Source of the DNA: Bacillota bacterium
Lineage (GTDB): Bacteria; Bacillota; Limnochordia; DTU087
DNA length: 46,912 nucleotides
NCBI GenBank assembly: GCA_012798695.1
Contig: JAAZMR010000090.1
Coordinates: 1-46,912, forward strand
Direction: 5' to 3'
Shown here piece by piece: positions 33,005 through 34,087 of the stretch. Position numbers and translations under genes: made by a program. Positions within the stretch are counted from its first letter, which is position 1; every line of letters begins with the position of its first letter. The notes under the pieces are model-generated. The model was not told the DNA's origin. It did not search any database and was given only the letters and a program-made list of their open reading frames with translations.

Positions 33005-33033
33005 TTGCAGAACCTCAGCAAATTGCATATAAT
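33005..33033 (+). promoter_or_regulatory. SigA-type promoter of the CDF transcript
   Basis: TTGCAG at 33005-33010 and TATAAT at 33028-33033 are 17 bases apart. Start of transcription is expected near 33040, which leaves a leader of about 157 bases before the CDF start codon. Confidence 0.75.
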
Positions 33034-33056
33034 AAACTCAGCCGATTCATGAGATC

Positions 33057-33171
33057 AGGCGATGGGCGAACCTCCTGGGAGGGATGCCCATGGTGCTGGG
33101 CTGTGTAACAGCAGCAGGTACGCCTTTAGAACCTGTGGGACTCAATGGCTAATTGGGGACCACAGGTTTTT
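33057..33171 (+). ncRNA. Riboswitch-like leader with intrinsic terminator
   Basis: The leader has a closing helix P1 (AGGCG 33057-33061 with CGCCT 33121-33125). P2 is ATGGGC 33062-33067 with GCCCAT 33086-33091, topped by CCTCC/GGAGG. P3 is GCTG/CAGC with CTG/CAG. Then comes an intrinsic terminator, AACCTGTGG 33130-33138 with CCACAGGTT 33160-33168 and five Ts. CAGGT at 33115-33119 can pair with ACCTG at 33131-33135, so an antiterminator is possible. It matches no class I can name with confidence; the downstream metal transporter suggests a metal-ion sensor. Confidence 0.6.
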
Positions 33172-33196
33172 CGTATCTCTAATGAGGAGGATTAGT

Positions 33197-34087
33197 ATGG
33201 AAGAGACCCGTTATGAGATGGCTAGGCGAGTTTCGTTGAACACAATGATTGGTAATATCCTTCTTACTGCTGTAAAGGCTGGGGTGGGGATCATCTCCCA
33301 AAGCTCAGCCTTGATCGCAGATGCTCTGCACTCGGCTTCGGATATTGCTACAACGTTGGTAGTGATGTACAGTATGCGGATCTCCAAGTTACCCCCAGAT
33401 CCGGAACACCCTTACGGCCATGGCCGAGCAGAGAGTATAGGAGCTAAGGTTCTGTCTGTCATACTGGTCTTAGTGGGGTTGAGCATGGGCACATCGTCTA
33501 TTAGGCAACTGTGGGGTGGCACCTATGTCGTGCCTGGGCGTCTGGCGCTCTGGGCGATCCTGCTTTCGATCGTGACCAAGGAAGGCATGTATCGGTATAC
33601 TGTGGCTGTGGGCAGGACGATCGATAGCACGGCTTTGATAGCGGATGCCCTACATCACCGCTCTGATGCTTTCTCATCGGTGGCAGCATTCTTGGGCGTG
33701 ATTGGTGCCAGGCTGGGGTATCCTGTTCTTGATCCACTGGCGGCTGCGGTAGTAGCGATTTTCATAGTCCGAATGGGCATTGAAGTCTTTCGCAGTTCAC
33801 TAGATGAGCTGATGGATGCACAGGTACACGAGACCCTGCAAGCTGAGGTGCACCAATATGCCAATGGCATACCGGGAGTACAACATGTGGATGATGTGCG
33901 CATCCGGCGATATGGGCCTCAATATGTGATTGATCTGAAAGTCAGTGTTGATCATCACCTGACGGTCAAGGAAGGTCATGAGATTGCGGCCCACGTGAAG
34001 GGAGCATTGCGAGATTCTCTACCATCTGTGGGAGACGTCTTGGTACATGTCAATCCATATCCGGATCAACATGACCTGGTGGATTAA
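33197..34087 (+). CDS. Cation diffusion facilitator transporter
   Basis: A 296-residue CDF protein with about six membrane helices. The metal sites are DALHSASD and the second DALHHRSDAFSS, and the cytoplasmic domain near residues 210-290 has VDDVRIRRYG and IDLKVSVDHH. The DxxxD-type sites here contain His, typical of Zn/Fe/Mn-type exporters. GAGGAGG precedes ATG 33197 by 6 bases; the longer frame from 33062 runs through the structured leader and is not real. It exports divalent metal from the cytosol under control of the leader described above. Confidence 0.92.
   Translation: MEETRYEMARRVSLNTMIGNILLTAVKAGVGIISQSSALIADALHSASDIATTLVVMYSMRISKLPPDPEHPYGHGRAESIGAKVLSVILVLVGLSMGTSSIRQLWGGTYVVPGRLALWAILLSIVTKEGMYRYTVAVGRTIDSTALIADALHHRSDAFSSVAAFLGVIGARLGYPVLDPLAAAVVAIFIVRMGIEVFRSSLDELMDAQVHETLQAEVHQYANGIPGVQHVDDVRIRRYGPQYVIDLKVSVDHHLTVKEGHEIAAHVKGALRDSLPSVGDVLVHVNPYPDQHDLVD

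Follow-up and report, generated by a model that had tools for sequence, protein, structure and literature searches.

The yybP-ykoY manganese riboswitch is a metal-sensing leader that also precedes metal exporter genes. The NiCo/czcD riboswitch class is another such system, reportedly described by Furukawa et al. 2015 and by Xu and Cotruvo 2020, 2022. In published members of the NiCo/czcD class, metal binding blocks a terminator and leads to read-through (PMC7689651; PMC7917058). The solved structure from Erysipelotrichaceae holds Co(II) by the guanines G46, G47, G87, and G88 (PMC7689651). The class is named for nickel and cobalt; buffered measurements and estimates of cellular metal have since favored Fe(II) (PMC7689651; PMC9434800; PMC11477304).

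A leader of this kind is found in the window, by which we mean the whole 46,912-nucleotide stretch that was analyzed. Positions 33041-33145 (forward strand) match the NiCo model RF02683 over its full length (model positions 1-96 of 96; E 4.1e-10) with 55.5 bits, a score that exceeds the curated gathering cut-off of 37 by 18.5 bits. This was the single match when the whole window was compared with 4227 Rfam families, and it is also the sole NiCo match in a search of the 2.68-Mb host genome (E 5e-12). The original prediction had proposed a riboswitch leader on a metal exporter gene, as the covariance model confirms, and had suggested an Rfam search with NiCo and yybP-ykoY first; the former matched and the latter did not. 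Judged by its sequence, the leader is an ordinary NiCo/czcD riboswitch, a known class, and its mechanism is probably like that of the published czcD riboswitch. We place the probability that it is a metal-responsive transcriptional ON switch of this class, acting on the exporter gene, at about 95%. The features of the locus are as follows.

33005..33033, + strand: sigma-70-type promoter TTGCAG-17-TATAAT, read in the sequence, with its layout kept in relatives
33041..33145, + strand: NiCo (czcD) aptamer, a four-way junction (Rfam RF02683)
33050..33056, + strand: 5' strand of P1 (UGAG..C), pairing with 33139 and 33141-33144 (Rfam alignment)
33058..33097, + strand: P2 hairpin, 33058-33067/33086-33097 (Rfam alignment)
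33098..33099, + strand: junction GG between P2 and P3 (Rfam alignment)
33100..33112, + strand: P3 hairpin, 33100-33104/33108-33112 (Rfam alignment)
33114..33136, + strand: P4 hairpin, 33114-33119/33131-33136, containing CAGGT/ACCTG (Rfam alignment)
33128..33171, + strand: intrinsic terminator, with stem 33128-33138/33160-33170, inner stem 33141-33146/33152-33157, and U-run 33167-33171
33137..33138, + strand: junction GG between P4 and P1, also the innermost pairs of the outer terminator stem
33139..33144, + strand: 3' strand of P1, also in the inner terminator stem (Rfam alignment)
33197..34087, + strand: gene for a CDF-family divalent metal exporter of 296 amino acids, starting at ATG 33197 (TIGR01297, Pfam, structures, motif)

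The aptamer comprises four helices, and in the window each of the 26 model pairs is a standard base pair. A three-helix junction had been proposed, with CAGGT (33115-33119) and ACCTG (33131-33135) as a competing, antiterminator-like pairing. That pairing and its antiterminator-like role stand, but it forms helix P4 of the aptamer, which brings the number of helices at the junction to four. The trinucleotides GGG at 33098-33100 and GGG at 33137-33139 are invariant among 12 aptamers. By position, the GG at 33098-33099 would be the counterpart of the Co(II)-binding G46/G47, and that at 33137-33138 is the likely counterpart of G87/G88.

The leader shares with the NiCo/czcD class the four-way junction of P1-P4, the GG junction dinucleotides, a terminator that overlaps P4 and P1, and an exporter gene of the CDF (czcD) type as the likely target. 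It differs in several respects. P1 is formed by UGAG/CUCA, in contrast to ACUG/CAGU elsewhere, the 5' ACAGUA found in the Rfam consensus is absent from this lineage, and the P2 loop is lengthened by an 11-base insertion. There is possibly also an extension of P1 by AGCC/GGCU (33040-33043/33147-33150). These lineage differences represent variation within the family.

The AGCC segment lies at the likely transcript start and the GGCU segment after P1, and both are present in all six leaders of the family. The two could lengthen P1, with a calculated contribution of about 2.6-3.3 kcal/mol; because they are invariant in the six leaders, covariation does not bear on this pairing. An alternative hairpin before P1, in which CTCA at 33037-33040 pairs with the UGAG of P1, occurs in the minimum-energy fold. 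It was rejected: the CTCA is at or upstream of the probable start of transcription, and two relatives (L004 and L005) do not conserve it.

The promoter was also part of the original prediction. TTGCAG (33005-33010) and TATAAT (33028-33033) are separated by 17 bases, and a TTG-type box lies 17 nucleotides before TATAAT in five same-family relatives (L004, L005, L008, L009, and L010). A consensus promoter scan did not list TTGCAG-17-TATAAT, because TTGCAG agrees with the -35 consensus TTGACA at only three of six positions. The transcript is predicted to start at about 33040-33041.

The CDF gene expected behind the leader is indeed present, with a ribosome binding site of the GAGGAGG type before its start codon, and it is the only CDF gene detected in the host genome. 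Its product scores 244.8 bits with TIGR01297, contains the Pfam domains Cation_efflux and ZT_dimer, and has FieF/YiiP structures as its nearest solved relatives (E 9e-22); scores with equivalog models are below their cut-offs. From its position, the leader would control this gene. CDF proteins fall into Zn-CDF, Fe/Zn-CDF, and Mn-CDF groups (PMC1868760). Assigning the metal of this pump from its quartet, H45-D49/H153-D157, was tried and set aside: the H-D/H-D pattern is compatible with Zn-CDF and with some of the Fe/Zn-CDF clusters, and it speaks only against Mn-CDF.

The linkage of the NiCo element to CDF genes extends beyond the host. NiCo matches with E <= 0.001 occur in 11 of 73 genomes of the host's class, seven of them above the cut-off, and 10 of the 11, including that in the window, precede a CDF gene. 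In all, the element is found before CDF genes in 15 other genomes (L005 and L012, apparently from the same genome, are counted once), a total that includes CDF relatives elsewhere in Bacillota, such as Lachnospiraceae, Blautia, Cuneatibacter, and Oscillospiraceae, among others. The L011 match (30.6 bits, below the cut-off) was left out; the available DNA around it contains no CDF gene.

Covariation across homologous CDF leaders, which had been suggested as a check, is observed. Pairs were counted on Rfam alignments, because an unguided MAFFT alignment put the helices in the wrong places. On these alignments, which are fitted to the Rfam structure so that the counts lean toward it, and relative to 1000 shuffles that disregard relatedness, 265 of 285 cells in 11 aptamers are paired (shuffle mean 205, maximum 220). 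Two-sided changes affect 18 of the 26 pairs (shuffle mean 13, maximum 18), and the number of additional pair types is 43 (shuffle maximum 41).

Several related loci show further features. In three leaders of a sister genus (L008, L009, and L010; leader positions 1501-1617), the NiCo scores are 31-35 bits, below the Rfam cut-off, and P1 does not pair fully. In the CDF pumps of the same three loci, Glu replaces the first His of the metal site in TM5 (HDED vs HDHD), and perhaps the switch and the pump of this genus are drifting together. A CDF ortholog that is 74% identical to that of the window (L013:1250-1530) has no NiCo match in front, apparently through loss or replacement of the switch. In another related genome of the class, an OLE RNA (L006:754-1392, minus strand; 472 bits) directly adjoins a NiCo-CDF unit and is divergent from it.

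As originally proposed, an intrinsic terminator with five Ts (33167-33171) follows the aptamer, its stem spanning 33128-33170. The terminator stems take in the second GG and the 3' strand of each of P4 and P1, with bases 33131-33144 common to the aptamer and terminator folds, and so the metal-bound aptamer and the terminator are mutually exclusive. This exclusivity implies an ON switch, in which an aptamer stabilized by metal would prevent termination. Of 16 leaders folded without ligand, most show this overlap, with the P4 and P1 3' strands lying in the 5' arm of a terminator-type hairpin; L007 and L024 are the exceptions.

The leader folds with z = -4.2 relative to shuffles, a value dominated by the terminator; that of the aptamer alone is -0.9. 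In ligand-free equilibrium calculations on the growing chain, P2 has a pairing probability of 1.0. At 33160, the probabilities of P4 and P1 are 0.60 and 0.48, and at 33165 both fall to 0 while the terminator reaches 0.99. For 33041-33145 without ligand, the aptamer state lies at -22.4 kcal/mol against a minimum of -40.0 kcal/mol, and other folds are strongly favored. Reaching the ON state would therefore depend on folding kinetics and on the binding of metal.

A strong hairpin with a U-run could also be a plain terminator or attenuator of the upstream gene, with a fortuitous or decayed aptamer match beside it, and an uncontrolled terminator would fold alike. However, a promoter separates the leader from the upstream gene, all 26 aptamer pairs are intact, and the terminator, together with the P4 and P1 3' strands, is conserved almost to the base in related genera; this explanation is very improbable. 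If instead the leader is a genuine switch, its class might be doubted. The original prediction could not name one and allowed for an unassigned class, stating that a clear Rfam match would make the element already known. A new class with an unassigned ligand would accommodate the absence of the 5' ACAGUA and the longer P2 loop of this lineage. But the full-length RF02683 match far above the cut-off, the standard pairs, and the conserved junction guanines already refute it, and we regard a new class as highly unlikely. Control by a yybP-ykoY manganese riboswitch would agree with the occurrence of that class before metal exporters, the point in which the leader resembles it. In contrast, an Rfam search of the leader alone with lax filters lists, up to E 10, no yybP-ykoY match, only NiCo and snoRNA sR19, the latter a chance match (9.2 bits, E 8.7). 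This result already refutes yybP-ykoY, whose probability is negligible.

For the preferred NiCo/czcD ON switch, analogy with published members supplies three elements: that metal is bound, which metal it is, and in which direction the gene is regulated. RNA polymerase would start near 33041. Without metal, P1 and P4 would be weak, 33128-33146 would pair with 33152-33170 as the terminator, and transcription would end at 33167-33171. A transition metal (Fe2+, Co2+, or Ni2+) would bind at the GG/GG junction and stabilize P1, P4, and the four-way junction that they help to form. The stabilized aptamer would sequester the 5' half of the terminator, allowing the polymerase to read into the CDF gene, and the CDF pump would then remove the metal.

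The exporter gene is thus most likely switched on when a transition metal, for example iron, cobalt, or nickel, accumulates in the cell. The changed P1, the possible AGCC/GGCU extension, and the degenerate P1 and Glu-for-His pump of the sister genus could be signs of drift, with a slim chance that the aptamer of this uncultured Bacillota lineage is tuned to a metal other than that of characterized members. A leader that could not be named at first is now assigned to NiCo/czcD, and an uncultured family of Bacillota is added to the range of this switch seen here. Because no CDF exporter other than the one behind this switch was detected in the genome, the locus is a simple setting in which to ask what metal this class responds to inside cells.
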